Shown here piece after piece: positions 5,454 through 42,442 of a stretch of DNA of 64,000 nt. The notes beneath the pieces were generated by a model, which saw nothing but the letters and a program-made list of their open reading frames with translations, did not search any database and was not told the origin of the DNA. Each line of letters begins with the position of its first letter. Positions within the stretch are counted from its first letter, which is position 1. The position numbers and the translations under genes are program-made. Source of the DNA: Desulfobulbaceae bacterium (lineage in GTDB: Bacteria; Desulfobacterota; Desulfobulbia; Desulfobulbales; Desulfocapsaceae); the NCBI GenBank assembly GCA_004796425.1, contig QZLB01000097.1, forward strand, positions 1 through 64,000, given 5' to 3'.

Positions 5454-5572
5454 GCACTACCGGTCGTACTGGACACCAGAGAGGTGATTAACGCATAACC
5501 ATCAAATACAGCCAATACGTGAACCACTCCATTGGCCAACTCACTGTTGAGAGCGAACAGGAGGAAGATTCT

Positions 5573-6862: not shown

Positions 6863-6914
6863 GCCGGACGAAAAGGATTATCGTCATTCACAGGAAAGCT
6901 TCCGGGGAGATACT

Positions 6915-7397: not shown

Positions 7398-7432
7398 ACC
7401 GAACCCCCAACAAGAGGTCAGAAATAGAGCAG

Positions 7433-26437: not shown

Positions 26438-27088
26438 ATGAAGCGACTGATCGCCCTGCCGTTTCGAAAATCTGTAGAAATTGCCTTTCTTTCAATTCGT
26501 GTCAGATTTTTTCGCTCACTGGTAACCACCATGAGCCTGGTATTGGCTGTTGCGTTTCTCTGCTTTATGCGCAGCTCCAATGATTTTGCCCAGGGTTTTC
26601 TTGCCACCGGCAGTGTCGAAGCATACCAGGCGATAGTCCAGGCTGGTTATGATGTTTCCCTTGAGACCATGACTATTGCAGCCAGCGCCAAACAACGCTG
26701 GATTGTCACCCTTTCTCTGCTGGTATGTATTGTGGGAATAATAAATGCACAACTGATGTCTGTAACAGAACGGTTTAGGGAAATCGGTACCATGAAATGT
26801 CTTGGTGCACTCGATCGTTTTATCGTTCGTTTATTTATTTTGGAGGCTTCCATGCAAGGACTTGCCGGTTCTCTCTGTGGAGCCATCATCGGCACAATGG
26901 CTGCTGCGGCCAGTGCCCTATTATCTTTTGGCACTGGAGCGCTTTCCACTGATGCGCTCCAGCCACTGGCAGTCTCCATCGCAATTTCCGTGGTCACGGG
27001 TACCTCCCTGAGCCTGCTTGGTGTTATCTATCCAGCGATTATCGCGGCCAGGATGCAACCTGTTGAGGCAATGAGAGTTGAGCAATAA
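26438..27088 (+). CDS. Mini FtsX-type ABC permease without periplasmic domain
   Basis: The protein of about 216 residues has four hydrophobic segments: one near residues 25-45, then three of the FtsX permease core (about 85-105, 130-160 and 180-205). VTERFREIGTMKCLGA is the coupling-helix region typical of MacB/LolC proteins, and YPAIIAARMQPVEAMRVEQ is the usual end. The large periplasmic MacB_PCD domain that normally separates helix 1 from helix 2 is reduced to about 40 residues. ATG 26438 is preferred over GTG 26429 because GGTGAG precedes it. It likely pairs with the ATPase at 27120 and the giant permease at 27857. Confidence 0.85.
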   Translation: MKRLIALPFRKSVEIAFLSIRVRFFRSLVTTMSLVLAVAFLCFMRSSNDFAQGFLATGSVEAYQAIVQAGYDVSLETMTIAASAKQRWIVTLSLLVCIVGIINAQLMSVTERFREIGTMKCLGALDRFIVRLFILEASMQGLAGSLCGAIIGTMAAAASALLSFGTGALSTDALQPLAVSIAISVVTGTSLSLLGVIYPAIIAARMQPVEAMRVEQ

Positions 27089-27119
27089 TTAAAAAAGAGC
27101 ACAGTTCGCGTTTCCAACT

Positions 27120-27854
27120 ATGAAGAAAAAACAGATCGTCAGGGTGAGTGGGGTAACAAAAAATTTCGATCTCGGAAAGATTGTCGTTGAGGTCCTCAAA
27201 GGCATTGATCTTGAGATTGAGACAGGAAAGTACCTTTCTATTATGGGTCCCTCCGGCTCAGGTAAGTCTACACTTTTTAATATGATCGGAGGACTCGACA
27301 AACCGACATCGGGCAAAGTTTTCATCGATGAAGTAGATATTGCCCAACTTGACGCCTATGAGCTCGCCTGGCTTCGCTGTAGAAAAATCGGCTATATCTT
27401 CCAGACCTTTAATTTGATACCGGTCATGACTGCGCTGGAAAACGTAACCCTGCCCATGACTTTTGCAGGCTTGAGTAATGACGACGCGGTTGAACGAGGC
27501 ATGGAGCTTCTTTTTCAAGTCGGTCTCGAAGGGCGACACTCACATAAGCCTTCGGAGCTCTCTGGTGGGCAACAGCAGCGTGTTGCGGTGGCCCGGGCTC
27601 TGGCCAATACTCCGGCGATTATCCTGGCGGATGAACCAACAGGAAACCTTGATCTGACCACCGGCGAAGATATTATCAACCTGCTCAAAGAACTGAGCAG
27701 AGAACGAGGGGTAACCGTTATATCAGCAACCCATGATTACAAAATGCTCAATGTATCTGATCAGGTGGTATGGATTAGAGACGGCCGGGTTGACAAAATA
27801 CAGGATCGTTCCGACCTGGATATCAAGACAGGCGGCCTTACCGAGGAACGCTAA
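27120..27854 (+). CDS. ABC transporter ATPase, LolD/MacB type
   Basis: This 244-residue ATPase has Walker A GPSGSGKST (43-51), Q-loop YIFQTFNLIPVMTALENV, signature LSGGQQQRVAVARA (147-160), Walker B IILADEPTGNLD (167-178) and the H-loop in SATHDYKM. The FNLIPVMTALENV segment is characteristic of ATPases working with FtsX-type permeases (LolD, MacB, FtsE). Such pumps do mechanical work across the periplasm rather than classic transmembrane transport. It is placed exactly between the two FtsX-type permeases, two bases before the larger one. A heterodimeric complex with both is inferred. Confidence 0.95.
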   Translation: MKKKQIVRVSGVTKNFDLGKIVVEVLKGIDLEIETGKYLSIMGPSGSGKSTLFNMIGGLDKPTSGKVFIDEVDIAQLDAYELAWLRCRKIGYIFQTFNLIPVMTALENVTLPMTFAGLSNDDAVERGMELLFQVGLEGRHSHKPSELSGGQQQRVAVARALANTPAIILADEPTGNLDLTTGEDIINLLKELSRERGVTVISATHDYKMLNVSDQVVWIRDGRVDKIQDRSDLDIKTGGLTEER

Positions 27855-27856
27855 TT

Positions 27857-30800
27857 GTGCAGCCCATGACCATGTGCAAGAGACCAGTCTTTCTAACACT
27901 GCTGTTTTTCTGCCTGAGCATTTACAACTCAGGCGGGCTGAGTAGTGCACATGCCGAGGATCAACTCCCTTTTGAAGTCATCGAACAACTGGCAGCATTG
28001 AAAGATCGTTCCATCGGGACGGAGGGTAACGCTCAGGCTGCAGATTATATCAGCTCATATTTCACATCGCTGGGGCTTGAGCCTCAAGATTACCTGTTTC
28101 AAGTACCTACCAGAAAAGTAATCAATGCCCATATTTCAATAGCAGAGAAAAAGGGTGCACTTAAGCCACTGTTTAATAACGCTGTAACACCTCAATCGAC
28201 CGGTCTCTCTGGGCTGACAGGCCCACTTTATTTTGTGGGTGACGGAAACCTTAGCGATCTGGATGGCAAACTCATCGAAGGTTCCATCTTGGTGATGAAT
28301 TTCAACTCCGGACGACAATGGCTCACCGCCGCCTCCCTCGGGGCACAAGCCGTCATTTTCGTAGACCATGGTCATACCAGATCAAATGCGTTTTTCATTG
28401 AGAAAGAAGAGCTCTCCCCACTTCAGTTTCCCTGTTTCTGGATGACATCAAAAGAGGCTGAGCTGCTGTTCGGCCCCCTGTCGAGCAAAAATGGATTGAT
28501 CAGCAACCAGGTTGAGATCCTTTCTTCCGTCGTCTGGGAAACGGTCACCAGCAAAAACATCTATTGTTTGATCAAGGGTAGCGATCCACAACTCAGCGAA
28601 AAGTTGCTGATTATTGAAGCGTTCTACGATTCAACCAGATATGTGGAAGGCTCAGCACCCGGTGCCGATGAAGCGGTCTCCATCAGCAATCTATTGGGGC
28701 TTGCCCACTACTTCTCAAACAATCCACCCAAACGGTCAGTACTGCTCATTGCCACCAATGGCCACGCCCAGGCGCTGCACGGTATGCGCGACGTGATCTG
28801 GAGCTTACAGGAGCGGAGCAAAGTTTTACGGGACTATCGAAAAGAGCTGAGAAACACGATAAAGGCAGCAAAAAAGCGCATTGCAACGCTTACCTCGCTC
28901 TCCTTCCCGCTGGTCCCTGATCCAGATCGAGATCTTATCATTTCCAGTGCCATCATGGACGATCTGAAGATGGAGGTAGATCGTATTTCCCGGGTACTGA
29001 TGAAACTCAGGCTTGAGAAAGATGCAAGCTCGGCAAACAAATCGCTCATCACGGAGCTTGCCGACCAACGATTCACTCTGCGTAAACTCAGTTGGAGAGA
29101 ACAATTCAACGAGATGCCCGATGATGAGCGTACCTATTTCAAAAAGATAATATCACAAGCACTGATCACCCTTGAAAACCGGATCATAGACAATACCAGG
29201 GAGTTGGAGTCGCTGGAATCAGCGATGGATTTCAGGCAATTGTGCAGGGATTTTACCATTGATGCAGTACTTTCACTTCACCTGTCAAGTCACGGCGAGG
29301 GGATTGGCGGATTTCATCGTGGTTGGCTCTATCGGCTCAGATCCCGAATCAATCGAACCGGTATATTCAGTACCATCGGCCAGGTTTTTAGCGATGCGGC
29401 AGCCCAACTACCCACAACCGAAATCGTCGAATATATTGACACCCTTCGCCCCTCCCGACTCAGAAGCTGGGATTCCTATTTTATTGACAAACCTTTTCTC
29501 GGTGGTGAAATCAGTTCCCTGGCGGGCTACATCGGCGTCAGCCTGGTAACCGTTGGAGATGGCCGTACTCGCTGGGGCACACCGTGGGATACCGTAGAAC
29601 ACCTTGATAAACCGTACCTGGAAGCACAATATCAATTACTTCGATCGATGGTCTCGGCCACCGCCGATGCACCTGCGCTGCATGCTGATCTCTTTCCCCG
29701 CAATGGGTTCTCAAGCGTACGCGGCACCAGCAACTTGCTACTCCAGGGTGAGTTATTCGCCGACTATCCTGCAGAGCAGACGATCCTGCTCTCCTACCAG
29801 GGAATAGCCAAGCTCTATTCTTCAGTCAACAGCAATGGTACCTTTTTGTATAAAGGGATCGCCGACTCTAAAAACGTTCTGGATAAATTGATTATCGAAG
29901 GCTATCGGTTTGACCCTGTAAGCGGTGAGATCATCTGGGCTATCGATAAAAAAGAGACGGGCAAAACCAGTTATCGTGTAAAAATGTTGCGCCGAGCTAT
30001 GAAAACCCGATTGATTATGTTTGCCTGTAATCAAACCACCGTCTTTGATCTACTTGAGCCGCGGAGCCTCGATTATATGACCAAACTCTACCTCTTTGAC
30101 GGTAGAAGAGATGCGCCACCACAACGTTACTGGTACAGCAGAATCGATACCCGCCAATCGAATATCTCCTCGATCTATCTGGAACCGGGTTCCTGGTTGA
30201 AACTCACCCTCTCAGATAACGTTATAACCAGAAAGTTGATCCTCTCAAACGGTAACAAAAAAGTACCACTGGGCTTTGGATATCCGGTTGAAGAGTATCC
30301 CGCAATCATCCATACCGCATACCGTTCTGCCATGGATGCTTGGACTCTGCTGCTGCCGCGCATTGAGAATCTGGAATCGCATGGTATTTTCGATGAACGA
30401 ATCAACAACTTGAAAAACAGAGGACTCTCAGCACTGAACACAAGTACACAGCAACTCAAGGAGCTTAACTACACCGCTTTCAGAGAGCAGGCATCAGCTT
30501 CCCTGGCCCTGGCTGCCCGGGTTTATACTCAGATTGAAAAAACCCAGAAAGATGTATTGTTCGGAGTGCTATTTTATATTGCGCTTTTTGTCCCTTTTGC
30601 CTTCTGTATGGAACGATTTCTTTTCAGCTATGCCAACATCTATAAAAGAATTGTCGCATTTTCACTGATACTGACCAGTCTGATTCTGGTGATATATAAC
30701 GTCCACCCTGCCTTTGATCTGGCCTATAGTCCCATGGTGGTGATTCTGGCCTTTTTCATCATTGGTTTATCCCTGCTGGTCACCCTGATCATTTTCTTTC

Positions 30801-32692
30801 GTTTTGAAGAGGAGATGATCCTGTTGCAACGACACGCCAGCCAGATGAGTGCCGCAGAAATAAGCCGTTGGAAAGCATTTGTTGCTGCATTTTTCCTCGG
30901 GGTATCAAATTTGAGACGCCGGAGGATGCGCACCATACTCACCTGCACCACCTTGATCATCCTGACTTTTACCATCATGAGTTTCACCACGGTGAAATCG
31001 AACCAGCAGGAAAACAGGATGTTCTTCAATGATGAGACACCCTACCAGGGACTGCTCCTAAAGAAACTGAGCTGGAAGTCGATGCCCCCCCAGGCCGCCG
31101 CTATCCTTGAAGGAAGTATGGAATCAATCAGTTCACCGGCACAACGAGTGTGGCTTGAGGCCTCTGATGTAACACGAAGTGTTCATGTCCCCCTTCGCTA
31201 TCAGGGCAACAATTTTGTGCTTAATGGCCTCATTGGCCTCGGCTATCAGGAAGCGGACGTCACCGGTCTCGACCAGATCTTGAGCCGTGGCAGATGGTTT
31301 AAACCAACTGATCACCAGGCGATCATTCTGTCTGATAGAGCCGCGACCACCTTACAACTGGATTTCTCTGAAACACCCGTCATCGACCTTTTTGGTACAC
31401 CGTTCACGGTGATTGGCACCTTTTCTGGAGAACTCCTTGATCGCACCTTTGATCTTGATGGCGAGCCTCTTACACCAGTAATTTTCCCCGATGAAATGCA
31501 GCAGAATATGAGTGATGCAGAATTTGAAGCACTTGAGTCGGGAGAGGATGTCAGAAATTTGCAGTCCAGGTATTCCCATATCCCGGGAGGCTCAACTGCC
31601 ATTATTCCTGCGCCCACCTTGCTGGCCATGGGGGGCGAGCTGAAAAATATCGCTCTGAGATCAAATGATGAACTGCCACCTGCCAAAATTGCCTCCACCC
31701 TTGTTGATCGATTCAGTTTAGCAATTTTTGCGGGTGACCAGGATGGTGTCTGGCTCTACAACCTCAGTGATACCATGGCATACTCCGGTGTACCCAACAT
31801 CATCATCCCCTTGCTTATCTCGATTCTGATTGTTTTGAATACCATGATCAGTTCCGTCTATGAGCGAAAGAACGAGATTGGTATCTATACCTCTGTTGGC
31901 CTGGCACCATCGCATGTGTCGTTTCTCTTCGTCGCCGAAGCAATGGCCCTGGCAGTTATTTCCGTGGTGCTCGGTTACCTGGTTGCCCAGGTTTCCGCAG
32001 CGCTGCTCTCTGACACTCGCTATTGGGAAGGAATTACCGTCAATTACTCTTCACTTGCCGGCGTTGCCGCAATGCTTCTGGTAATCGGAGTCGTCTTGAT
32101 TTCAGTAATTTACCCTTCGAGAGTTGCCGCTCGGATTGCCATCCCCGACGTCAAACGTTCCTTTAAGTTGCCGGAGCCGGTCAACGACCAGGTAACTGTT
32201 ATGTTGCCGTTTTTCATGAAATATGAAGAACACAGCTCCATCGGTGGGTACCTCCACACCTTCTTCAGTGGCCACCAAGACATTTCCCATGGCAGGTTTT
32301 CCACCGGATTTATCGACCTGCTTCACACCTGTGCCACTGTTGATGAAATTGGCCAGGCTATTAAGAGCTCTGCAGACCCGTGCGCCTACCACTGTGTTCA
32401 TCTAAGATCACGAGTCTGGCTCTCACCATTCGATTTTGGCATCATGCAGTTGATCGACATCCAATTCTGCCCTGCTCGAGATAATCTGGAGTTTCTGGAG
32501 ATCAAGATCTCAATTAAAAGAGAGTCGGGAGAAAAAAGCCAATGGCAACGAATTAACAAATTGTTTATTCACGAATTAAGAAAACAGCTGCTGATCTGGC
32601 GATCCCTCGATGCTGGCCAGCATGAAGCGTATGCTCAACATTTTCAATCTATTTCAGAAGCACCATTAACACCGCAAAGTACAAATGACTAA
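27857..32692 (+). CDS. Giant fusion: degenerate M28 peptidase domain plus FtsX-type ABC permease
   Basis: The 1611 residues run in this order: signal peptide (1-33), PA-like domain (115-205), M28 peptidase fold (240-310 and 460-600) interrupted by a helical insert (315-450), beta-rich domain (605-800), coiled coil (830-895), three membrane helices (900-985), an FtsX core with helix at 1023-1045, periplasmic MacB_PCD-like part (1050-1310) and three helices (1312-1425), and a cytoplasmic tail (1430-1611). The zinc ligands of M28 are lost: the first His is F256, the EE pair is H303-A304, and the last His is G574, so it should bind rather than cut peptides. VYERKNEIGIYTSVGLAPSHV is the coupling helix. 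GTG at 27857 follows GAGG at 10 bases; ATG 27866 is an alternative. Confidence 0.85.
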   Translation: MQPMTMCKRPVFLTLLFFCLSIYNSGGLSSAHAEDQLPFEVIEQLAALKDRSIGTEGNAQAADYISSYFTSLGLEPQDYLFQVPTRKVINAHISIAEKKGALKPLFNNAVTPQSTGLSGLTGPLYFVGDGNLSDLDGKLIEGSILVMNFNSGRQWLTAASLGAQAVIFVDHGHTRSNAFFIEKEELSPLQFPCFWMTSKEAELLFGPLSSKNGLISNQVEILSSVVWETVTSKNIYCLIKGSDPQLSEKLLIIEAFYDSTRYVEGSAPGADEAVSISNLLGLAHYFSNNPPKRSVLLIATNGHAQALHGMRDVIWSLQERSKVLRDYRKELRNTIKAAKKRIATLTSLSFPLVPDPDRDLIISSAIMDDLKMEVDRISRVLMKLRLEKDASSANKSLITELADQRFTLRKLSWREQFNEMPDDERTYFKKIISQALITLENRIIDNTRELESLESAMDFRQLCRDFTIDAVLSLHLSSHGEGIGGFHRGWLYRLRSRINRTGIFSTIGQVFSDAAAQLPTTEIVEYIDTLRPSRLRSWDSYFIDKPFLGGEISSLAGYIGVSLVTVGDGRTRWGTPWDTVEHLDKPYLEAQYQLLRSMVSATADAPALHADLFPRNGFSSVRGTSNLLLQGELFADYPAEQTILLSYQGIAKLYSSVNSNGTFLYKGIADSKNVLDKLIIEGYRFDPVSGEIIWAIDKKETGKTSYRVKMLRRAMKTRLIMFACNQTTVFDLLEPRSLDYMTKLYLFDGRRDAPPQRYWYSRIDTRQSNISSIYLEPGSWLKLTLSDNVITRKLILSNGNKKVPLGFGYPVEEYPAIIHTAYRSAMDAWTLLLPRIENLESHGIFDERINNLKNRGLSALNTSTQQLKELNYTAFREQASASLALAARVYTQIEKTQKDVLFGVLFYIALFVPFAFCMERFLFSYANIYKRIVAFSLILTSLILVIYNVHPAFDLAYSPMVVILAFFIIGLSLLVTLIIFFRFEEEMILLQRHASQMSAAEISRWKAFVAAFFLGVSNLRRRRMRTILTCTTLIILTFTIMSFTTVKSNQQENRMFFNDETPYQGLLLKKLSWKSMPPQAAAILEGSMESISSPAQRVWLEASDVTRSVHVPLRYQGNNFVLNGLIGLGYQEADVTGLDQILSRGRWFKPTDHQAIILSDRAATTLQLDFSETPVIDLFGTPFTVIGTFSGELLDRTFDLDGEPLTPVIFPDEMQQNMSDAEFEALESGEDVRNLQSRYSHIPGGSTAIIPAPTLLAMGGELKNIALRSNDELPPAKIASTLVDRFSLAIFAGDQDGVWLYNLSDTMAYSGVPNIIIPLLISILIVLNTMISSVYERKNEIGIYTSVGLAPSHVSFLFVAEAMALAVISVVLGYLVAQVSAALLSDTRYWEGITVNYSSLAGVAAMLLVIGVVLISVIYPSRVAARIAIPDVKRSFKLPEPVNDQVTVMLPFFMKYEEHSSIGGYLHTFFSGHQDISHGRFSTGFIDLLHTCATVDEIGQAIKSSADPCAYHCVHLRSRVWLSPFDFGIMQLIDIQFCPARDNLEFLEIKISIKRESGEKSQWQRINKLFIHELRKQLLIWRSLDAGQHEAYAQHFQSISEAPLTPQSTND

Positions 32693-34685
32693 GACAGCAC
32701 ATCAGGTCAATCGCTCAATTCGTTTACGAGCCCCCATACTGGGGTTGCTTCTGTCCTGCTGGATTTGCCTGGTTACACCGCTGAACAATATCTACCATAA
32801 GTCAACCCCGCTGGGTGGCGGGCACTTTCCCCTGGCACCTTTTTTCATTTTTTTCATTCTGGCAATTCTCATTTCGCTGCTCGCCTGGCTGTTCAGAAGA
32901 AGAGTTCTGCTCTCCGGCTCTGAACTATTGCTGATCTGGATACAGATGGTGATCGGCTCGGGGATCGCCTATACCGGCTTTGCCCGCACCTTTCTGATCA
33001 ACTTGACCGCTCCGATCCATTTTGCCACCGTATCAAACCAGTGGGAAGGCCAATTTCTCCCTTTGCTTCCCGCCCGGTTAATGCCCGATTCAAATGAGGC
33101 AATCACCCTGCTTTACAACGGAATACCTGGCGGCAGATCCATGGGCTGGCTTGAAACCCTGCAAGCCATCCCCTGGTCACCCTGGGTTACCCCACTTCTA
33201 CAGTGGGCACTCTTCCTTGGCGTCTCATACTTTTTGATGATCTGCATTATTAATCTGCTCTCACGTCAGTGGATACTCAACGAGCGGCTCAATTTTCCGT
33301 TATTAAAAGTCCCGCAGCTCATTGGCGAAGCGATTGATACCGGAGGAATCCGCGGATTTCTGGGCAACCGTTTCCTGCTGGTCGGGTTGGCGATACCGCT
33401 CTGTCTTCACCTGATGAATGGATTGAATCTTTACTATCCTTCCATTCCCCATCTCCCAACCGTAATTCTTGCCGGATCATATTTCCCCAAAGAGGGGTTC
33501 CTCTCCGGTTTTTACAAGTTGAAGATCTACCTCTACCCCGCGTTCATCGGTTTTGCCTTTCTAGCCTCCCGACAGATCTCATTTTCGTTCTGGTTCTTTT
33601 TTCTATTGGGGGGACTGGTTTATGGCACTATGAACATGCTGGGGTACACAATACCGGCTTCTGAACTGGGTATTACCTTTGGTCCAACACTTACCAAGCC
33701 AGAAGAAATGCAGATGATCGGCGCCTATGGTGTATTTTTCTTTTTTCTCATCTGGCTGGCCCGACATCATCTCACTGATGTTACCAAACAATCGTTTCTG
33801 ATGGCGCCGCCGGGTGACAAAAATCCCGTCGAATGGTTCGATGTGCGCATTTCATTCTGGGGCACCGTCGCCGGAGCCCTGCTACTTGCAGGCTGGTTCA
33901 ATTACCAGGGGGTGAGCTGGACCACGGCCCTGCTATTGGTCGCTTCATTTTTTATGATATCGGTGGTCGTAACCAGAATTATCTGTCAGGGAGGACTTGC
34001 CTATTTCACCCTGACCGCCGCACCCATGGATGGTATTTCAAGTTTGTTCGGCACCAAATTCCTTGGCGGCACCAACGGTTTACTCGGTGCCATGAGCCAA
34101 AAAGTACTGTTCGTCGATTTCCGGGAATCTCTGATGCCGTCCCTGCTCCATAGCAAAAGTGTCACCGCGAAAAACCATAATGTTCTCCTGGTGGTATCAG
34201 CCTTGGCTCTAACCATTGGCTTTGCGGTGATCAGCTCTCTGGTCGCAATGATGGCCCTCTGTTATCGGTTCGGCATTAGAGAGCTTGACCTGGAATGGGC
34301 TTCACGCACCACGCTGAACGTCTATGAGAACGCCTACCGGCTGGTCACCAACCCGGTACCGTCAGGTGACTGGGTACACACCTTTATTATTGTCGGTGTG
34401 GTGGTGATGATTGTCCTTGTGCTCTGTTATCAGCGACTGTACTGGTGGCCTCTCCATCCAATTGGTTACCTGACGGCTTACAGTTCAGCAATGCGGATTC
34501 TCTGGGTGAGCTTCTTTTTCGGTTGGTTATTCAATACGCTCTGTATGAAGTACGGAGGGGTACAGTTATTTAGAAAGATGCAATTGTTTTTTATCGGCAT
34601 GATCATCGGGGATTTCCTGATGGGAGGAATATGGGCAATTATCGGCCAGTATACTTACACCAGTTATATGGTATTGCCAGACTGA
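32685..34685 (+). CDS. Large polytopic membrane protein, DUF6785-like
   Basis: This 666-residue protein is extremely hydrophobic, with more than a dozen predicted helices. RQWILNERLNFPLLKVPQLI at about residue 190 resembles the W...ER(L)xFPL motif of DUF6785/DUF6784 membrane proteins, mostly known from planctomycetes and not characterised. These are distantly similar to oligopeptide (OPT) transporters. The start overlaps the giant permease gene by eight bases, indicating translational coupling. The next gene, another polytopic protein of equal size, starts seven bases after its stop. Transport of a peptide- or lipid-like substrate is possible but not shown. Confidence 0.75.
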   Translation: MTKTAHQVNRSIRLRAPILGLLLSCWICLVTPLNNIYHKSTPLGGGHFPLAPFFIFFILAILISLLAWLFRRRVLLSGSELLLIWIQMVIGSGIAYTGFARTFLINLTAPIHFATVSNQWEGQFLPLLPARLMPDSNEAITLLYNGIPGGRSMGWLETLQAIPWSPWVTPLLQWALFLGVSYFLMICIINLLSRQWILNERLNFPLLKVPQLIGEAIDTGGIRGFLGNRFLLVGLAIPLCLHLMNGLNLYYPSIPHLPTVILAGSYFPKEGFLSGFYKLKIYLYPAFIGFAFLASRQISFSFWFFFLLGGLVYGTMNMLGYTIPASELGITFGPTLTKPEEMQMIGAYGVFFFFLIWLARHHLTDVTKQSFLMAPPGDKNPVEWFDVRISFWGTVAGALLLAGWFNYQGVSWTTALLLVASFFMISVVVTRIICQGGLAYFTLTAAPMDGISSLFGTKFLGGTNGLLGAMSQKVLFVDFRESLMPSLLHSKSVTAKNHNVLLVVSALALTIGFAVISSLVAMMALCYRFGIRELDLEWASRTTLNVYENAYRLVTNPVPSGDWVHTFIIVGVVVMIVLVLCYQRLYWWPLHPIGYLTAYSSAMRILWVSFFFGWLFNTLCMKYGGVQLFRKMQLFFIGMIIGDFLMGGIWAIIGQYTYTSYMVLPD

Positions 34686-34692
34686 TACGATT

Positions 34693-36651
34693 ATGTACGA
34701 CGACAAGGAACTAAAAGAATATCGGGATCTGCTCCCGACTCCTGACCATTTCGAAGAAGGGTTCGACTGGAAAACCATTGTCGGCGCCATTTTTATCGGC
34801 TTCCTGATGATGCCCGGTTCCATGTACCTGCAGTTGGTCATTGGTCAGGGAATCGGACCGGCTGCTCGCTGGGTAACCATTATCCTGTTTGCGGAAATTG
34901 CCAAAAGAGCCCACTCCGATCTAAAGCAGCAGGAAATTTTTCTCCTCTATTACATGGCTGGTGCGGCCCTTGCCTCTCCTTTCTCGGGACTGCTCTGGAA
35001 CCAGTACCTGGTCCAGTCAGACGCCGCTAAAATGTTGGGATTGACCGAATATATTCCAACCTGGGTTGCACCAGGACCTGAATCGATGTCCATGATAGAG
35101 CGGACCTTTTTCCATCGTGACTGGATGATTCCCATCCTGCTCCTGGTGGGTTCACAGATTATTCAACGGATCGATCATTTCGGGTTGGGATATGCGTTGT
35201 ATCGTATTACTTCCGATGTTGAAAAACTGCCCTTCCCCATGGCTCCGGTTGGTGCCCTGGGAACCATGGCGCTGGCTGAATCGGCAGAAGAAAAACAATC
35301 GAGCTGGAAATGGCGGGTCTTTTCAATCGGCGGGGTAGTCGGTCTGGCGTTCGGGGCAATATATGTATTGCTGCCCATTGTGTCGGGGCTGATCTTTACC
35401 GAGCAGATCCGCTTAATTCCGATACCCTGGATTGAATTGACTTCACATACCGAAGATGTCCTCCCGGCGGTAGCCACCGGACTGCAACTCGACCTCGGCC
35501 TGGTCTTTGTCGGTATGGTTCTACCGTTCTGGGCAGTAATCGGCGGTCTGATCGGTTTGATCATCACCATAATCCTGAATCCAATCCTCTACGCCCAGGG
35601 AATTCTCCATCGCTGGCACCCGGGAATGGCCACTGTGGATACGGTCTTTGCCAACAATTTTGACTTTTATATGAGCTTTGGTATCGGGCTGGGTCTGGCC
35701 ATCGGTGTCATCGGCATCTATTCCGTTGTCAAATCTATCAGGCAGTCAACCGCCAATCGAGGAGACTGGAAAGCGTTGTTCAATCCCCCGCCGGGAAGGG
35801 GCGACTTCAATTTTTGGATATCAATTGGCATCTATGTTTTTTCAACGCTTGCCTATGTCGGGCTGTGTGTCTGGCTGGTACCGACATTCCCCTGGATTTT
35901 CTTCCTGGCCTACGGCTTTATTTACACGCCGGTTATCTCTTATATTACCGCCCGGATGGAAGGTATCGCCGGCCAGTTTGTCAGCCTGCCGCTGGTCAGG
36001 GAAGCAAGTTTTATTGCCGGTGCGCGCTTTTTTGGCTACCAGGGTATCGAGATCTGGTATGCACCAATTCCGATCCATAATTATGGAGAGGCAACCGTCC
36101 AGTTCAGACAGATCGAACTTACCGGTACTTCCATCAGGGGGATCATTAAGGCTGAAATTATCGTCTTCCCAATTGTCATGGTGGCCAGTCTGCTGTTTTC
36201 ACAATTTATCTGGCGACTTGCTCCCATTCCCTCTTCGAGCTATCCCTATGCCCAGGAGCTTTGGCATCTCCAGGCCCTCAATACCCTGCTGATGCAGACC
36301 TCGACGCTGGAAGGCAACTCGCTCTTTTATCAGGCACTAAATGGTACCACCGTAATTTCCGGGGTGGGATTTGGTTTGCTGGCCTATGTTGTTTTGAGTT
36401 TTTTCGGCCTCCCGGTGCTGCTCATATACGGGGTGGTTAGAGGGTTGGGCCAATCGACCCCCCATGGTCTCATTCTCGAAGTGTTCGGCGCCCTGCTCGG
36501 GCGGTATTATTTTATTAAAAAATACGGCCCCATGTGGCGCCAGTACGCGCCGGTGCTGCTGGCTGGGTTTTCCTGCGGTATGGGCTTAACCGGTATGTTT
36601 GCCATGGGCTTTGCTCTGATCATGAAATCGTTGAACCATATGGCTTACTGA
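34693..36651 (+). CDS. Large polytopic membrane protein, OPT/DUF6784-like
   Basis: The 652-residue product has about 14-16 hydrophobic segments. DHFGLGYALYRITSDVEKLPFPMAPVGA at about residues 160-185 resembles a region of OPT-family oligopeptide and siderophore transporters and of uncharacterised peptide-transporter-like proteins in planctomycetes. It shares with its upstream neighbour the size, hydrophobicity and an (E)xLxFP motif, so the two may form a heterodimer that arose by duplication. It is packed between that gene and the exporter gene. The substrate is unknown; peptide import or export is an inference from family resemblance. Confidence 0.75.
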   Translation: MYDDKELKEYRDLLPTPDHFEEGFDWKTIVGAIFIGFLMMPGSMYLQLVIGQGIGPAARWVTIILFAEIAKRAHSDLKQQEIFLLYYMAGAALASPFSGLLWNQYLVQSDAAKMLGLTEYIPTWVAPGPESMSMIERTFFHRDWMIPILLLVGSQIIQRIDHFGLGYALYRITSDVEKLPFPMAPVGALGTMALAESAEEKQSSWKWRVFSIGGVVGLAFGAIYVLLPIVSGLIFTEQIRLIPIPWIELTSHTEDVLPAVATGLQLDLGLVFVGMVLPFWAVIGGLIGLIITIILNPILYAQGILHRWHPGMATVDTVFANNFDFYMSFGIGLGLAIGVIGIYSVVKSIRQSTANRGDWKALFNPPPGRGDFNFWISIGIYVFSTLAYVGLCVWLVPTFPWIFFLAYGFIYTPVISYITARMEGIAGQFVSLPLVREASFIAGARFFGYQGIEIWYAPIPIHNYGEATVQFRQIELTGTSIRGIIKAEIIVFPIVMVASLLFSQFIWRLAPIPSSSYPYAQELWHLQALNTLLMQTSTLEGNSLFYQALNGTTVISGVGFGLLAYVVLSFFGLPVLLIYGVVRGLGQSTPHGLILEVFGALLGRYYFIKKYGPMWRQYAPVLLAGFSCGMGLTGMFAMGFALIMKSLNHMAY

Positions 36652-36679
36652 GCGGGACCACAACAGAAAAAAATAGCAA

Positions 36680-39250
36680 ATGGCTGACACCGACATCACA
36701 AAACGCTCTTTATTTTACTGGGTTTATAACCGGTATCGAGGACTCCAGGTCCTGCTTCTGGTGATTATTGTGGTGAGCCTGTTTTTCAGGGTATTTCCGC
36801 TGGAGATGCAGCGACGAATCATCAATGTCGCTATCAACCTGAAAATGATCGACAAGCTCTATCTCTATTGTGTGCTCTATATGGGTGCAGTGCTGATCGC
36901 CGGTCTGCTGAAATATCTAACAAATACCATGCAGATGATGATCGGGCAGAAAATTCTGATCGGTATGAGAAAAGAGCTTTATCAGCATATCCTCCAGCTA
37001 CCGCTACCCTTTTTTCACCGGACACAAACCGGTACGATTATTTCCGCGCTCACCGCCGAACTCACGGCCATCGCAACCTTTCTGGGAGGCGCACTGGCAG
37101 TGCCGATCACCTCTATCCTGACCTTTTTCACTTTCCTGGGGTTCATGATCTACCTAAACCCATTGCTGGGTCTCTTGACCATGTTGATCTACCCCTTCGA
37201 AATGGCTGTTATCCCGCTCCTTCAACGCTGGTATAACAAATATAATCGCAAGCGTGTTGCCACCACTCGGACCCTGGCCTCAGTTGTGAATGAGTCGGTC
37301 ACCGGTATCCATGAGGTGCAGGGAAATGCCAGCTATATCCTTGAGCAGGGAAAACTTGATCGCTTGGTTAAAAAAATCTACTCGCTCATGACCAAGCTTT
37401 TCATTTTCAAGTATGGCATCAAGTTCAGCAACAACCTGTTCCAATCCATTGGTCCCTTCCTGCTGTTTCTCATTGGTGGGTACATGGCAATCCATGGAGA
37501 ATTTACCATTGGGGCACTGGTGGCCTTTCTCTCTGCGTATGAGAAAGTCTATGACCCGTGGAAGGAGGTGATTGAGTATTACCAATCGTACCAGGATGCC
37601 CGGGTACGCTATAAACAGATCATGACTCTCTTTGCGTACCAGCCGGAATTCCTGCTTGAGCCTCTTGAGAAGCGAGAAGTATTCAATCTCAAAGGTGAAA
37701 TTTCAGCAACCAACCTGAACTATTGGGTCAACGATAGTGTCCAGCTGCTGCAGGATATCTCGTTTCAGATCAAGCCGGGCAATCATGTTGCGCTTGTGGG
37801 CTTCTCCGGATCCGGTAAAAGTACCCTGAGCCTGCTGTTGAGTCAGCTGTACCGTATTTCTTCGGGTTCACTGAAGATTGATAATCACGAGATATCCGAT
37901 TTAACGAAACGTGACCTGGCTCGAAATGTCGCCAACGTTGCACAGCACCCGTTTATCTTTACCGGCACCGTTCGCGACAACCTCCTCTATGCGAGCAACA
38001 CACTCCAAAAAGATGGCTTGATTGAAGCCATTCCTTCACCGCAGGAACAGATGGAGATGATCAGGGAAGTGGGACTCGAAGAGGATACGCTGCGTTGGGG
38101 GTTACGCTCAGTAATTCCACTGGAAAAAGCTGCTCAGATGCGTGAGTCCTTTCTGAAAATGCGAGAAGTAATCCACCATGAGCTGCGTAATGAATTCACC
38201 CAGGCCATTGAATTCTATGATGCCCATACATTTCTTCACCATCAGCCCATCGCCACTAACCTGATTTTTGGAACTTATGGTGGTGCGTATCATGTGGATA
38301 AATTCATCACGAACCAGCAATTCAGAAGTTTTCTCTCGACCACAGGGTTGGAGAAAAAACTGCTCGACCTCGGCTTGATAATCGCCCGTTCGACCATCGA
38401 GTTTTTGGGTGATTTTCGTGCTGACGAATATTTCTTTCAAGGATCACCAATGAGTCAGGCTCGCTTTGATCACTATGAAGCGCTGGTAAAGCGAGCTGCA
38501 AAAATTGAATTTGATCAATTAAAAAGCAAAGAGTTAGAATCATTCCTGCAGCTTGCCCTAGATTTCACGCCGGGGATTCATAAAATCCACACCCTGAACA
38601 AACAATTTGAAGATGATATTCTCCGTGGTCGAAGCCAATTCCTGAAACAGGTGGCAGACATCGACCTGGATGAATGTCGTGATGGTGCGATCCAAACAGC
38701 CATTCTGCCCATCAGCGACATTGAAAAACAGGCCCGGACAACCACCAGCTACACCCCGTTCTGCTTTAACCAGTATCTCTTTAACCGAACCCTTCGGGAT
38801 AACATTTTGTTTGGCACCGTGATCAACCAGGAACTTATCAGAGAAAAGCTTGGCACACTGGCTCTTGAGGTATTCAAAAAACACGGCCTGCTGGACGACA
38901 TCATGGAAATCGGTCTGGATTTTCATGTCGGAAGTAAAGGGGATAATCTCAGTGGCGGCCAGAAACAAAAACTGGCTCTGGCTCGCGCCTTTCTGAAACA
39001 TGCCCCCATTCTTATTATGGATGAGGCAACCGCCAGTCTTGATAATCGATCTCAGGCGCGAATACAGAACTATATTGAGACAAGATTACGCGGTAATACC
39101 ACAGTAATTGCAGTGGTGCACCGGCTTGACATGATTTCTGGATATGACCATATTATAGTCATGAAAGATGGTAAAATTGTCGAAGCCGGAAACTATCAAA
39201 ATTTGATAGAACAACAGGGGGTTCTTTATGGACTCGTCAATGACAGCTGA
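36680..39250 (+). CDS. ABC exporter with split nucleotide-binding domain
   Basis: The 856-residue protein has a six-helix exporter domain (about 20-300) and an ABC domain with Walker A GFSGSGKST (374-382), Q-loop Q422, then GTVRDNLLYA (429-438). The signature LSGGQKQKL comes only at 757, with Walker B ILIMDEATA (777-785) and H-loop H814. Normal exporters need about 80 residues between Q-loop and signature; here it is about 330. Within the insert the pattern N-hydrophobic3, then GL, then GL nine residues later occurs three times (N434/G465/G474, N527/G556/G565, N708/G736/G745), suggesting triplication of the helical subdomain. All core ATPase residues are intact. It follows the OPT-like gene by 28 bases. 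Confidence 0.88.
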   Translation: MADTDITKRSLFYWVYNRYRGLQVLLLVIIVVSLFFRVFPLEMQRRIINVAINLKMIDKLYLYCVLYMGAVLIAGLLKYLTNTMQMMIGQKILIGMRKELYQHILQLPLPFFHRTQTGTIISALTAELTAIATFLGGALAVPITSILTFFTFLGFMIYLNPLLGLLTMLIYPFEMAVIPLLQRWYNKYNRKRVATTRTLASVVNESVTGIHEVQGNASYILEQGKLDRLVKKIYSLMTKLFIFKYGIKFSNNLFQSIGPFLLFLIGGYMAIHGEFTIGALVAFLSAYEKVYDPWKEVIEYYQSYQDARVRYKQIMTLFAYQPEFLLEPLEKREVFNLKGEISATNLNYWVNDSVQLLQDISFQIKPGNHVALVGFSGSGKSTLSLLLSQLYRISSGSLKIDNHEISDLTKRDLARNVANVAQHPFIFTGTVRDNLLYASNTLQKDGLIEAIPSPQEQMEMIREVGLEEDTLRWGLRSVIPLEKAAQMRESFLKMREVIHHELRNEFTQAIEFYDAHTFLHHQPIATNLIFGTYGGAYHVDKFITNQQFRSFLSTTGLEKKLLDLGLIIARSTIEFLGDFRADEYFFQGSPMSQARFDHYEALVKRAAKIEFDQLKSKELESFLQLALDFTPGIHKIHTLNKQFEDDILRGRSQFLKQVADIDLDECRDGAIQTAILPISDIEKQARTTTSYTPFCFNQYLFNRTLRDNILFGTVINQELIREKLGTLALEVFKKHGLLDDIMEIGLDFHVGSKGDNLSGGQKQKLALARAFLKHAPILIMDEATASLDNRSQARIQNYIETRLRGNTTVIAVVHRLDMISGYDHIIVMKDGKIVEAGNYQNLIEQQGVLYGLVNDS

Positions 39251-39764
39251 AAATAATACAGAGCACAGCGCATGCAGAATTTCATGCGACTCTGAGTTTT
39301 TAAGGAAGTCCGCAACCTTCTCAGGAGTCAGTCCCGAAGTTATCAAGCTCTTCGCCTATCTGTCCTCCCGCCGCAGTTTTAAAGCCGGTGACTATCTCAT
39401 AGCGCAAGGGGAAAAAGCAAATCAGGCATTTTTTGTGGTCAAGGGAACCGTTGAGATAACGGTACACCATCGTAACAAGGAAATTGTCCTCCAAGAACTC
39501 GAAGCACATGCCTTTTTTGGTGAACTTGCCCTGTTGGCAAAATTTCAGTGGTTTTTCAATGCCCGGGCAAAAGATGATCTTGAGGTGATCGTGATTGATC
39601 AGAAAACGTTTCAGAAGGTCATCGAAAAATTTCCAGAGAGTAAAGATTTGCTCACCGAACGGGTAATCCAGGCGCGGGTTGACAGACTTGTCCAACAGAC
39701 AGCGTTCATGATTGATACGTTCCTTGATCCGGAAGCAGACAAATCCTCTGCTGCAATCGTATAA
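39228..39764 (+). CDS. Cyclic-nucleotide-binding domain protein
   Basis: This 178-residue protein consists of one cNMP-binding (CRP-like) beta-roll at about residues 30-150, with FKAGDYLIAQGEKANQAFFVVKGTVEI and FFGELALLAK, the last being the phosphate-binding cassette region though without its usual Arg (FFGELALLAKFQWFF). There is no DNA-binding helix-turn-helix, so it is not a CRP-type regulator. The gene overlaps the exporter gene by 23 bases and has GGGG eight bases before ATG, so it is probably made with it and may regulate the exporter by direct binding. The ligand is uncertain. Confidence 0.85.
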   Translation: MDSSMTAENNTEHSACRISCDSEFLRKSATFSGVSPEVIKLFAYLSSRRSFKAGDYLIAQGEKANQAFFVVKGTVEITVHHRNKEIVLQELEAHAFFGELALLAKFQWFFNARAKDDLEVIVIDQKTFQKVIEKFPESKDLLTERVIQARVDRLVQQTAFMIDTFLDPEADKSSAAIV

Positions 39765-39765
39765 A

Positions 39766-40365
39766 ATGAAATTCTTCGTACTCATATTCTGGTTACTCTT
39801 GATCACTGCCCTCAGCACTCCTTTACACGCCACCACCGAAGGAGTGCCAAAGGAAATTGCAGGCTTTCGGCTCGGTGAAGATATCACCGATTACCAGGAG
39901 ATTGAGTATTCCGATTATTTAAAAAACGTGGTGATAATGGACTGGCATGGTTTTAAGAAAGGAGTCCTGTCCTATGGGATTTGTGCCTACCCGGGCAAGA
40001 TCGTGCGGATTACCATGAAATATGCTGACTCCACAAAACCGTTTTATAACAAGCTGTTAAAGAAGTTTAAGCAGAAATACGGCAAACCAACCGAGTGGGG
40101 TGGTGATGCCTTTGGTATCCTCTTTAAGTGGAAATGGGTCTTTCTGGATGAGCAAAACGAGCGGGTGACCCTGATCCTTCAGCACAACCTCCAGGATCAT
40201 AACGAAAATATCGGTACCGTAATGAAACTTACCTACCCCGAAAGAATCATTGATGAGCAGGCCTGTTTCATTGAGCAGTGTGAGATAAATAAGAGTCAGG
40301 AAGAAAAAGCAAAGCTCGAGAAACGGTCTGAGACGAACTGGGATTATCTGATACCAAAGCAATAA
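39766..40365 (+). CDS. Secreted protein of unknown function
   Basis: This 199-residue protein has a clear signal peptide (MKFFVLIFWLLLITALSTPLHA) and a mature domain with PKEIAGFRLGEDITDYQEI, a G-x-R-L-G start often seen in small periplasmic alpha/beta proteins, then strands such as GICAYPGKIVRITMKYAD and FKWKWVFLDEQNERVTLIL. The end has a Cys-x5-Cys pair (QACFIEQCE). No family is recognised. It begins one base after the preceding stop, so it belongs to the same transcript. It may be the periplasmic partner of one of the pumps; this is only inferred from position. Confidence 0.75.
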   Translation: MKFFVLIFWLLLITALSTPLHATTEGVPKEIAGFRLGEDITDYQEIEYSDYLKNVVIMDWHGFKKGVLSYGICAYPGKIVRITMKYADSTKPFYNKLLKKFKQKYGKPTEWGGDAFGILFKWKWVFLDEQNERVTLILQHNLQDHNENIGTVMKLTYPERIIDEQACFIEQCEINKSQEEKAKLEKRSETNWDYLIPKQ

Positions 40366-40366
40366 C

Positions 40367-41233
40367 ATGCTCGAACCTGCGGTTACACCATCCCGTGTCT
40401 GCTGGAACGGCCTCTCTTTTCATCTCGATCCGGGATGCGAAGTCACCATCAAGAACGACAGTCACCTGATCATCGAACACCAGCTCTCTCCACTGGCAGA
40501 AATCAGATGGTCAATCACCGGTAAGAAGAAACGAAATAAGAATTTTCAAAGCCTGGACCGCGATCTCAGTGCCAAATATGAGCGGTTGAAAATTTCTGAT
40601 ATATCGCGATTTCAAACGATTAGCAGTAATTTCGAACTGGCCTCTTATCGAACCAATCATGGTGAGCATCGGGAACTGGTGCTGGCTCTTCAATGTAAAA
40701 GCTGTGGCACCAATTATCTGCTCCATTGTGCAGATTCCCAAGAACAATCCAAACCGATCGTAACCCTTTATGAGCAGTTGAGTTGTACCCATCCAGGGAC
40801 AGTCCGAAATCAGGTTTGGCAGATCCAGGATTTCTATTTTCTTGTTCCACAAACCTTCTCCCTGAGCTCACAACGGTTTTCTCCAGGAAATTCTATCCTC
40901 ACTTTTACAAATGGCCCCACCATCCTTTACTATGGTCGGATTGTTCCGACCCTGGCCGGTTCGCACCAGGAAGATTACGCAACCCTCTTCTGCTCGCTTA
41001 CCGGGCTTCGACAGGACCAGCTTGTCGAAGAAAAATCGACTTTCTCCGGGCTCAACACCCCTTCCCTGACAAGTCGAATAGCGACCCTTTTACATCGTCG
41101 AAAGATTTTCCAGTGGGGACACGCTCAGATTTTTGAAGATCATGATCGATTCCTGGTCGTTTCTCTCCAGAGCAGGAAGCGTATCGATACGGATTTACAA
41201 AATAGATTATCAAATGGTTATGGGCTTATTTAG
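40367..41233 (+). CDS. Unrecognised protein in the transporter locus
   Basis: The 288-residue product has no signal peptide or membrane helix and no family I can name. It shows alternating short beta strands, a CKSCG motif (C110, C113) with C121 nearby that could bind metal, and a repeated overall pattern in two halves: LSFHLDPGCEVTI near residue 16 and FYFLVPQTFSLSSQRF near residue 155, each followed by a short strand and a polar loop. It starts one base after the preceding stop and overlaps the next gene by 14 bases, so it is coupled on both sides. Two tandem similar domains are possible. Confidence 0.7.
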   Translation: MLEPAVTPSRVCWNGLSFHLDPGCEVTIKNDSHLIIEHQLSPLAEIRWSITGKKKRNKNFQSLDRDLSAKYERLKISDISRFQTISSNFELASYRTNHGEHRELVLALQCKSCGTNYLLHCADSQEQSKPIVTLYEQLSCTHPGTVRNQVWQIQDFYFLVPQTFSLSSQRFSPGNSILTFTNGPTILYYGRIVPTLAGSHQEDYATLFCSLTGLRQDQLVEEKSTFSGLNTPSLTSRIATLLHRRKIFQWGHAQIFEDHDRFLVVSLQSRKRIDTDLQNRLSNGYGLI

Positions 41234-41606
41234 AAAGAAGAAACCGCACACACCAATGCTCACCCGGGAACAGTCACTTGCGTGTCGGCCATTTCACAAT
41301 GACGTGACCAGCTGGGAAGAGACATCGGAAGGGCTTATCCGAATCCAATATGAACTCCCGCTTTCACCTTTTCTTTCAGCGATCTTCAGCAAATTTACCG
41401 CCTCTCAAGCAAAACGCCCGATGCGAACGCTTGAACTAGACAAAATGGGCAGCGTGGTCTGGAAAATGATCGACGGGGAAAAAACGGCAGCAGAAATAAT
41501 TTTGGAATTCGCCCGCTACAATAACATCACCAATCAGGAATCAGAGCAGGCAATCACCCTATTTTTCAGACAACTCGGTAAGCGGGGGTTAATTGGGCTC
41601 TTCTGA
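41220..41606 (+). CDS. PqqD-like (RRE-type) protein
   Basis: This 128-residue protein ends in a PqqD-like domain (about 65-128): RTLELDKMGSVVWKMIDGEKTAAEIILEFA, the usual hydrophobic-G-...-W-..-DG-T-...I pattern, followed by a helix and KRGLIGLF. PqqD-type domains bind leader peptides of modified peptides (RRE) and present them to enzymes. The N-terminal 60 residues are basic and not typical. The start at 41220 overlaps the previous gene by 14 bases; ATG at 41214 is an alternative. No radical-SAM or precursor gene is next to it. It ends the locus, eight bases from the convergent glycosylase gene. Confidence 0.72.
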   Translation: MGLFRKKKPHTPMLTREQSLACRPFHNDVTSWEETSEGLIRIQYELPLSPFLSAIFSKFTASQAKRPMRTLELDKMGSVVWKMIDGEKTAAEIILEFARYNNITNQESEQAITLFFRQLGKRGLIGLF

Positions 41607-41614
41607 TCCAAGAA

Positions 41615-42442
41615 TCAACGCTGCAGTTTCTTTACGATCATTTGAAGATCATCCCACACTGCCTTTTTCATTTCCGGATTCTTGAGCAGAAAAACCGGGT
41701 GAAAGGTTGCCATCAGGTTGTATTTCTTATCAGTAGGGTCGGTATACTCAAGAAAGGTTCCCCGCTGTTGCGAGAGTGGTAGATTACTGCCTGTGAAGAG
41801 CCGGGTTGCAATAATTCCCATCGCGCAGATGATTTCTGGCTGGAGCAGTTGTATCTGGTCGAATAGATGGGTAGAGCAGGTTGCAATGTGTTGATCAGTT
41901 GGCTGACAGGTCTCGGGAATTGAGCATTTGATAACATTGGTCACAAAAACCTCTGATTCTGAAAGTCCCATGGCCTCGATCATCCGACGAACCATCGCAT
42001 CCTCTTCACGACCAAACAATTCCAACCCACTCAGCTGAACTGAGGGACGGTGGGTAAGCCAGTCACCAACGATCAATATCCTGACCGTGTTGCTACCAGC
42101 TCCGGGAGTGCTGATTTGTCTGCTCTGGTGAAGGCTGCAGACGCTACAACTCTGTATCCGCTCTGTTAACTCATCCAGCAGCCCCTCAGGCTGATCCTGG
42201 CTGCGGGCTGGGCTGGTCATCTGTGTATCAGCAATTGTGGACTGGTGATCAGGAGCCCGGAGAGACTCTGTTTCGCCAGTATTCTCGGACGATAGAAAAC
42301 CTGAGAGACCAGGATGCATCGGATATTGATCGATCCCGCACACCTGGTGATACTCAAGCAGCGAGCCTATGGAACGAAGCAGTTCTTTCTGTGTCACAAA
42401 AGACCTCGATAAAAATAGCGTAAGGGGATTGCACGCCTCCAT
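41615..42442 (-). CDS. Uracil-DNA glycosylase, family 4-like
   Basis: This 275-residue protein has an extended N-terminal region (1-90, no recognised domain) and then a family 4 Fe-S uracil-DNA glycosylase domain: cysteines in CSVCSLHQSR, ILIVGDWLT where the active-site loop normally sits (typical members have GEAPG), VFVTNVIKCSIP with Cys ligands, IICAMGIIATRL and ATFHPVFLLKNP, the C-terminal HP(S/A) motif region. It should excise uracil from DNA. The GDWLTHRP active-site loop is divergent from GEAPG, so reduced or changed specificity is possible. The four cluster cysteines appear present. Confidence 0.85.
   Translation of the reverse strand: MEACNPLTLFLSRSFVTQKELLRSIGSLLEYHQVCGIDQYPMHPGLSGFLSSENTGETESLRAPDHQSTIADTQMTSPARSQDQPEGLLDELTERIQSCSVCSLHQSRQISTPGAGSNTVRILIVGDWLTHRPSVQLSGLELFGREEDAMVRRMIEAMGLSESEVFVTNVIKCSIPETCQPTDQHIATCSTHLFDQIQLLQPEIICAMGIIATRLFTGSNLPLSQQRGTFLEYTDPTDKKYNLMATFHPVFLLKNPEMKKAVWDDLQMIVKKLQR

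Follow-up and report, generated by a model that had tools for sequence, protein, structure and literature searches.

Within a window of 64,000 nucleotides, the whole stretch of DNA analysed here (positions 1 to 64,000 of contig QZLB01000097.1, assembly GCA_004796425.1, Desulfobulbaceae bacterium), we examined a string of transport-related genes, g1 to g10, and the genes that surround it (Table 1). The source genome comprises 330 contigs and 4.4 Mb, and the named relatives nearest to it include Desulfofustis (classed in Desulfocapsaceae, Desulfobulbales), Desulfopila, Desulforhopalus and Desulfocapsa. All ten genes lie on the + strand, with successive genes overlapping or sitting no more than 31 bases apart, as the initial annotation had described, and family matches bear out its naming of g1 (FtsX), g2 (LolD-type), g3 (M28/FtsX fusion), g6 (ATP-binding cassette [ABC] exporter), g7 (cyclic nucleotide monophosphate [cNMP]-binding) and g10 (PqqD). 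The limits that it set to the block were too narrow, however, since five glycan genes at 21176-26279 precede g1 on the same strand, and this cassette belongs to the unit, which thereby spans fifteen genes (21176-41606). An Rfam scan of the window matched nothing.

Table 1. Genes and segments of the locus, in window coordinates
Feature	Position	Strand	Description
GT28a	21176-22420	+	glycosyltransferase, GT28 C-terminal domain; PF04101 4.6e-15
GT4 glycosyltransferase	22417-23703	+	PF00534 4.5e-34; NCBIfam EPS_EpsE 7.7e-53, below cut-off
Histidine phosphatase	23573-24340	+	PF00300 4.5e-46; TTG start as listed; probable true start near 23700
GT28b	24337-25485	+	second GT28-type glycosyltransferase; PF04101 2e-6
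g0	25482-26279	+	DUF2334/polysaccharide-deacetylase-like; PF10096 2.8e-6, PF01522 3.5e-5
g1	26429/26438-27088	+	short FtsX permease subunit; ATG at 26438; PF02687 4.1e-18
g2	27120-27854	+	LolD/MacB-type ATPase; ABC_tran 1e-33; TIGR02211 4.7e-68
g3	27857-32692	+	1611-aa fusion: putative pseudo-M28 ectodomain, beta-rich region, MacB/FtsX-type permease
g3, modelled part (aa 28-890)	27938-30526	+	about aa 31-607 = M28 fold without catalytic residues
g4	32685-34685	+	DUF6785 + DUF6784 polytopic membrane protein; PF20581 7e-160, PF20580 3e-34
g5	34693-36651	+	ultra-conserved membrane protein; no match in Pfam, NCBIfam, PDB
g6	36680-39250	+	MsbA-like ABC exporter, enlarged nucleotide-binding domain
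g6, Q-loop/helical copy 1	37922-38137	+	aa 415-486
g6, inserted segment	38042-38749	+	used as co-occurrence query
g6, Q-loop/helical copy 2	38192-38434	+	aa 505-585
g6, Q-loop/helical copy 3	38732-38950	+	aa 685-757; runs into LSGGQ
g7	39228-39764	+	cNMP-binding-fold partner of g6; PF00027 4.9e-21; pocket residues incomplete
g8	39760-40365	+	probably secreted/anchored; family not found
g9	40367-41233	+	no predicted transmembrane segment; family not found
g10	41220-41606	+	PqqD-like; PF05402 9e-7
Uracil-DNA glycosylase superfamily gene	41615-42442	opposite	faces g10, eight bases downstream; ends block

Three of the four joins within the glycan cassette overlap by 4 bases, the exception being the one that leads into the phosphatase, a gene with an uncertain start, and 149-158 bases separate the end of the cassette from g1. 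In two of the loci that we fetched (L241, L274), a series GT28a-GT4-(second GT4)-phosphatase-GT28b-g0 immediately precedes g1, and in two others (L243, L248) the cassette with neither g0 nor a recognised phosphatase does so; in L238 GT28b alone precedes g1, and in L244 the cassette lies 6.9 kb before it. GT28b is found immediately upstream of the core in several families, g0 is syntenic in fetched loci, and GT4 lies near GT28a in many. Of 20 GT28a sites inspected, mostly unlinked to the core, 8 carry labels for the full trio of GT28a, GT4 and second GT4, and 15 for two or more of the three; the labels come from a simple gene caller that drops some genes.

The evidence that these genes work together comes from their distribution. 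We sampled the phylum evenly, taking 395 genomes, and searched them with one query per gene. At the thresholds applied (E 1e-3 for g5, E 1e-60 for g3, E 1e-5 for the g6 insert), each of the three occurs in the identical 28 genomes, and the remaining 367 have no match to any of them; the limit for g3 was set strictly because weak FtsX matches are found everywhere. These 28 core genomes, the window genome among them, span 12 families and 20 genera, with one g5 match in each. There are 10^43 ways to draw 28 of 395 genomes and 10^29 ways to draw 20 of 246 genera, figures that are not probabilities, since related genomes are not independent. GT28a (E 1e-40) is present in 33 of the 395 genomes, namely all 28 core genomes and five more in which the core is absent (E 1e-67 to 1e-78, 37-39% identity), and is thus a complete but not an exclusive partner. 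In the assemblies as they stand, the distance from g5 is no more than 60 kb for g6 in 4 of the 28 genomes and for GT28a in 9; g6 shares the contig of g5 at a distance of 90 kb to 3 Mb in G364, G402, G455 and G474, and GT28a is more than 60 kb from g5 on the same contig in G199, G364, G455 and G474. Furthermore, g3 was found in all 31 g5-holding genomes tested (26 of them among the core 28), even when on another contig. Because g3, g5 and g6 are held by the same few genomes even when far apart, they are probably parts of one undescribed machine, and we consider it highly probable that g1 to g6 plus GT28a form one system.

With respect to gene order, we observe that it is kept across orders. Among near relatives, g5 is present in 35 of 97 genomes (window genome counted), and in the 34 regions fetched from them those of g1 to g4 that the contig covers are ordered before g5. 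Where the region has room, g8 and/or g9 follow in most cases (exceptions: L058, L060), and the g6-g7 pair either separates g5 from g8, in some cases in inverted orientation, or is missing at this site. For named relatives the scan kept the best 80 of 227, so that distant named members are missing; it yielded 52 loci with at least 9 kb before g5, in which g1 to g4 all lie on the g5 strand in 49 and are ordered in 47, and 48 loci with at least 6 kb after g5, in which g8 is found downstream in 36, g9 in 33, g10 in 40, g6 in 26 and g7 in 25. Named carriers include Desulforhopalus singaporensis DSM 12130, Desulfatibacillum alkenivorans DSM 16219 and Desulfogranum marinum DSM 2058. Several loci of Desulfobacterales have g7-g6 after g10, in company with a STAS gene, an HATPase_c_2 (anti-sigma-type) kinase and a SpoIIE-domain protein.

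The genome of the window itself carries a second g6-g7 pair (L229, G000:C229:1-14000, about 3600-7500), beside relatives of the HATPase_c_2, STAS and SpoIIE-type genes, a setting that suggests partner-switching control of the exporter. In one set of genomes (L101, L102, L105-L107), two iron-containing alcohol dehydrogenase-like genes come after the core, together with a sigma-54-type response regulator. We also note that g5 is split into two frames in G038 and G049 and that g3 of G322 has an in-frame TGA (L061, L062, L112); errors of assembly or decay may lie behind these broken copies. Two genomes of one family, G167 (L113) and G199 (L114), have g5 (one with g4) apart from g1-g3, and the genes that follow g5 in the two are related, the G167 copy having cysteine-rich (CCG) domains. 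Two g2-like genes before g5 in L113 were considered as an alternative arm and rejected because the g3 of G167 is located elsewhere; they adjoin branched-chain amino-acid transporter permeases, and the one of the two that was tested has the C-terminal domain of a branched-chain ATPase. In three genomes (L094 = L174; L189; L165), Omp85-family (with POTRA) and arginase-family genes stand immediately before g4, in the place where g1-g3 are missing. A TamB-family gene precedes the Omp85 gene in two of them, and L165 begins inside the Omp85 gene.

The first three genes provide an FtsX/MacB-type permease pair (g1 and g3, both FtsX) and one ATPase (g2, ABC_tran), with four transmembrane segments in g1 and seven in g3 by crude hydropathy; g2 scores below the LolD equivalog cut-off (TIGR02211, 229 versus 307.75 bits). 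In g3, Pfam recognises M28 (9e-5) and FtsX (1e-12), and a profile built from 11 g3 proteins finds MacB and transferrin receptor as well as M28 aminopeptidases (2ek8, 2e-15). An AlphaFold2 model of amino acids (aa) 28-890, with a predicted local distance difference test score (pLDDT) of 90.8, superposes on BSAP (6hc7; Z 27.4, root-mean-square deviation [rmsd] 5.7, 387 residues) and on Aeromonas aminopeptidase (1amp; Z 26.1, rmsd 2.6, 255 residues), which places it in the M28 fold. The M28-like character proposed at the outset therefore holds for the fold but not for the active site: in 85 of 85 unique g3 sequences the general-base Glu is absent, as are His/Glu at three ligand sites. At the positions concerned, whose numbers we take to be those of 1AMP, the first His is replaced by F/P/S/R/A, the general base by G/A/S/R and the last His by G/S/E/D/T/N, while the Glu site that follows the general base has H or another residue, never E; Asp is kept at the Asp179 site in 1 of 85 sequences and at the bridging site in 83. 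From these sequences we read the M28 domain of g3 as a pseudo-enzyme. In plasmid records, the M28 part of g3 found only one annotated M28 family peptidase (24.6%).

The two polytopic proteins that follow had both been annotated as OPT/DUF6785-like, which is correct for g4 as regards DUF6785, not OPT, and incorrect for g5, for which neither a family match nor a relation to g4 or OPT is detectable. While g4 passes the Pfam gathering thresholds (DUF6785 533 bits, DUF6784 117.5 bits), its profile had no match among PDB sequences at E 10, and g5 had none in Pfam (E 1), NCBIfam (E 0.1) or PDB sequences (E 10). Homology between g4 and g5 was tried and rejected (hhalign 0.2-0.4%). A relation of either to OPT was likewise not detectable in Pfam, in a family search over 97 genomes, where the OPT model (PF03169) had no match in the window genome at E 1e-3, or by hhalign, which gave at most 2% with seven OPT sequences only. 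Neither has a match in 72,556 plasmid records. Across the phylum, identity to the window copy is 70-92% for g5, 36-68% for g4 and 32-67% for full-length g3, and in the genomes compared g5 has changed less than the RNA polymerase beta subunit (RpoB): 70-83% versus 55-63% for a 994-aa RpoB piece in distant genomes, 85% versus 70% in G089, and 88-92% versus 78-84% in six genomes within the family. Recent transfer of the whole cluster does not account for this conservation, because the adjoining g3 and g4 have diverged. No open-access publication was found on DUF6785, DUF6784, DUF2334, the M28/FtsX/OPT/PqqD combination or the alphaproteobacterial locus described below.

Downstream of g5, g6 combines an ABC_membrane domain with a nucleotide-binding domain (NBD), and MsbA is its best NCBIfam match, below the equivalog cut-off (322 versus 602 bits). 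The expanded NBD reported initially is indeed enlarged, and can be specified as two additional copies of its own Q-loop-to-signature segment with unrelated sequence between; by hhalign, copy 2 matches copy 1 at 94.1% and copy 3 at 96.6%, copy 3 matches copy 1 at 94.4%, and nine control pairs reach at most 0.4%. The ATPase motifs are kept in Desulfobacterota (Walker A in 49 of 49 g6 sequences, LSGGQ and Walker B in 48 of 49 each, some genomes being counted twice). Where g6 loci were fetched on their own, g7 accompanies g6 in 15 of 19. The motif of the phosphate-binding cassette in proteins such as g7 is presumably Glu and Arg; among 41 Desulfobacterota sequences, 18 have the Glu only, 17 the Arg only and 6 neither, the window copy having Glu and Trp, and a g7-like protein of Rhizobium keeps both Glu and Arg.

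At the end of the block, g8 and g9 match no family in Pfam or NCBIfam, g8 having a hydrophobic segment at its N-terminus, and g10 passes the PqqD gathering threshold (29.5 versus 23.4 bits). Aligned together with its relatives, g10 matches six OPT-linked PqqD proteins at 98.9% (hhalign), and its NCBIfam scores against the classical PqqD partners of enzymes for ribosomally synthesized and post-translationally modified peptides are weak, at best 2e-5. We fetched nine OPT loci, eight from a plasmid listing and one from the Desulfocapsaceae genome G059, and in six of them a PqqD-like gene comes next after OPT: Eubacterium, Enterococcus, G059 and the haloarchaea Halobacterium, Halorientalis and Halocatena. 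The next gene in the Comamonas locus is not PqqD-like, and those of Xanthomonas and Prevotella are unannotated there. OPT and a PqqD-like protein are thus a possible general pair in bacteria and haloarchaea (L200, L206/L209, L210-L213). In Eubacterium, an aminoacyl-histidine dipeptidase gene follows the two.

Outside the phylum the search covered plasmid records, in which the g6 insert matched 149 (Rhizobium 138) and GT28a 275. We read five alphaproteobacterial loci (Rhizobium sp. WSM4643, R. etli IE4803, Azospirillum thermophilum, Ensifer canadensis and Sinorhizobium meliloti ml28), of which all but R. etli, where the order is equivalent by annotation, were aligned with the window. Identities in these four are 41-42% for GT28a, 24-26% over 781-928 aa for the g6-like protein (Rhizobium: 25.6% over 928 aa, E 4e-93) and 27-33% for the g7-like protein, and in three loci 35-38% for GT4 and 31-36% for GT28b; the cassette phosphatase of Azospirillum is 36.8% identical to the window copy, and its g7-like protein is fused to the g6-like one. 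In place of g1-g5, an Opp-type importer adjoins the alphaproteobacterial cassette, composed of SBP_bac_5, Opp-type permeases and a double ATPase, with matches of Opp- and nickel-type permease models below cut-offs. To judge from the sequences, this is likely a non-orthologous replacement of a whole transport arm. An adenylate-cyclase-like gene lies upstream in the Rhizobium, Ensifer and S. meliloti loci, the last of which also has a polysaccharide lyase. On S. meliloti pSymB, the cyclase-like gene and the lyase stand immediately before the Opp arm (L280:8476-10802, 21949-24441), and the g6-like protein is encoded in an unannotated 831-codon open frame. Two papers describe SMb21196 of S. meliloti as an OppA for short peptides; it was left out of the argument because it could not be matched to the binding protein of L280.

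We propose that the genes at 21176-41606 make up a single envelope system dedicated to a glycoconjugate, a molecule that contains sugar; we hold this reading to be evenly balanced, and its substrate and direction are putative. The cassette would assemble the glycoconjugate in the cytoplasm, and g6/g7 would carry it through the inner membrane. In g3, the dead M28 domain may bind the molecule rather than cut it, like transferrin receptor and nicastrin, which are without peptidase activity. ATP hydrolysis by g2 would drive g1/g3, with the molecule handed to or from g4/g5, and g1-g5 would act at the periplasmic face as an arm that is powered by ATP and carries a receptor. Uptake or retrieval by this arm is a tentative direction, drawn by analogy because an Opp-type importer is attached to the same cassette in alphaproteobacteria; an outward direction, because of the Lol/MacB kinship and the Omp85/TamB neighbours in three genomes, is about as tentative. 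The fullest form of the proposal is possible, though we would not put it higher than that: a new envelope machine of a co-inherited dead M28 receptor, a MacB-type motor, g5 and a tripled-segment exporter, which would export and retrieve a glycoconjugate, and in which alphaproteobacteria would have swapped the motor-receptor arm for an Opp importer while the ATPase of the exporter died.

Several observations weigh against this proposal. TamA/TamB-type proteins serve the outer membrane, and for this reason the Omp85/TamB neighbours favour an outward role, against an uptake arm in its simple form. None of the five alphaproteobacterial g6-like proteins read has kept Walker A, LSGGQ or Walker B, so that g6 need not transport in every lineage, and none of the 41 Desulfobacterota g7 sequences keeps both canonical pocket residues. 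The kinship of g10 with OPT-linked PqqD proteins is the best evidence for another cargo, since it argues for a peptide-like one. The presence/absence counts are non-independent among related genomes and come without a variable-gene negative control, and identity does not separate the five additional GT28a matches from the weakest core genome (G121, 39%, 9e-85). The linkage count of g6 is a lower bound, many contigs being short, and in G006 the core contig and the g6 contig may adjoin. Finally, the AlphaFold2 model of g5 had a pLDDT of 35 (22 similar rows) and was not used.

Among other explanations, a purely outward route is unlikely, if the strongest of the rivals: a glycolipid or polysaccharide would be made, flipped by g6 and extracted to the outer membrane by g1-g3 in the manner of LolCDE or MacB, with g4/g5 as channel or anchor and no uptake. 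That g2 is nearest to LolD/MacB and g6 to MsbA is consistent with it, as are the lyase of the S. meliloti version and the Omp85/arginase genes before g4 in three genomes with a TamB-family gene in two, but in alphaproteobacteria that place in the locus is taken by an Opp-type importer with a binding protein, and no outer-membrane factor or adaptor gene was noticed beside g1-g3, where neighbours were not searched systematically. The peptide or modified-peptide substrate of the initial annotation fares worse and is now improbable. It would have g4/g5 import peptides, g10 act as a PqqD chaperone, the M28-like domain bind peptides and g6 export one, and it draws on the match of g10 to PqqD proteins encoded directly after true OPT transporters and on the Opp-type system that replaces g1-g5 in alphaproteobacteria; against this, the M28 catalytic residues are lost throughout, the window genome has no match to the OPT model and g4/g5 reach at most 2% by hhalign with seven OPT proteins, and the further genomic partner is a glycosyltransferase, GT28a.

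Slightly more improbable still is a make-export-retrieve loop for a small glycosylated metallophore or signal, exported by g6 and retrieved by g1-g5 (by Opp in alphaproteobacteria). The Opp- and nickel-type permease matches, the OPT-associated PqqD and the one g5 match per core genome would fit such a loop, which is speculative, and no outer-membrane receptor, metal regulator or small-molecule synthetase was noticed among neighbours that were not searched systematically. That the ten genes are neighbours without a common function, with g6/g7 and g8-g10 merely inserted, is very improbable: many relatives lack g6/g7 at the locus or have the pair inverted, and in several Desulfobacterales loci it lies beside STAS, HATPase_c_2 and SpoIIE genes, but the g6 insert is present in exactly the 28 core genomes, unlinked cases included. 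This explanation is contradicted for g3, g5 and g6 only, and g7-g10 stand outside the contradiction. The single envelope machine of the initial annotation, an idea that was to fall if homologues never co-occurred, thus comes out strengthened by the reverse result, with 28 of 28 genomes shared by g3, g5 and g6, g1-g5 ordered in 47 of 52 loci and the order kept across orders.

On the proposed reading, a string of hypothetical transport genes becomes a defined pathway with a parts list, in which g5 is singled out as a protein more conserved than RpoB, yet without a family match in the libraries searched. The pathway would include an ABC exporter family whose NBD grew via internal duplication and whose ATPase motifs were lost in the alphaproteobacterial copies read, and a likely example of a transport arm swapped as a whole. 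Sinorhizobium meliloti, in which genetics is routine, carries the alphaproteobacterial version.

Compared with known systems, the set resembles LolCDE, MacB and FtsEX in its LolD/MacB-like ATPase (g2) and FtsX-type permeases (g1, g3), and differs from them in the M28-fold ectodomain and extra transmembrane segments of g3, in a g1 too short for a large periplasmic domain, and in the polytopic proteins g4/g5. The fold of g3 is that of M28 peptidases and of transferrin receptor and nicastrin, with the catalytic residues lost; unlike these relatives, g3 is bacterial and its M28 domain is fused to an ABC permease. With MsbA-type exporters g6 shares the ABC_membrane domain and NBD, from which it departs in its two extra Q-loop/helical copies and its cNMP-fold partner. 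The PqqD partner of OPT transporters is related to g10, whereas g4/g5 are without detected OPT homology. With the alphaproteobacterial locus the set shares homologous glycosyltransferases (in GT28-GT4-GT28 order), g6 and g7, but that locus has an Opp-type importer for g1-g5 and a g6-like protein without ATPase motifs.

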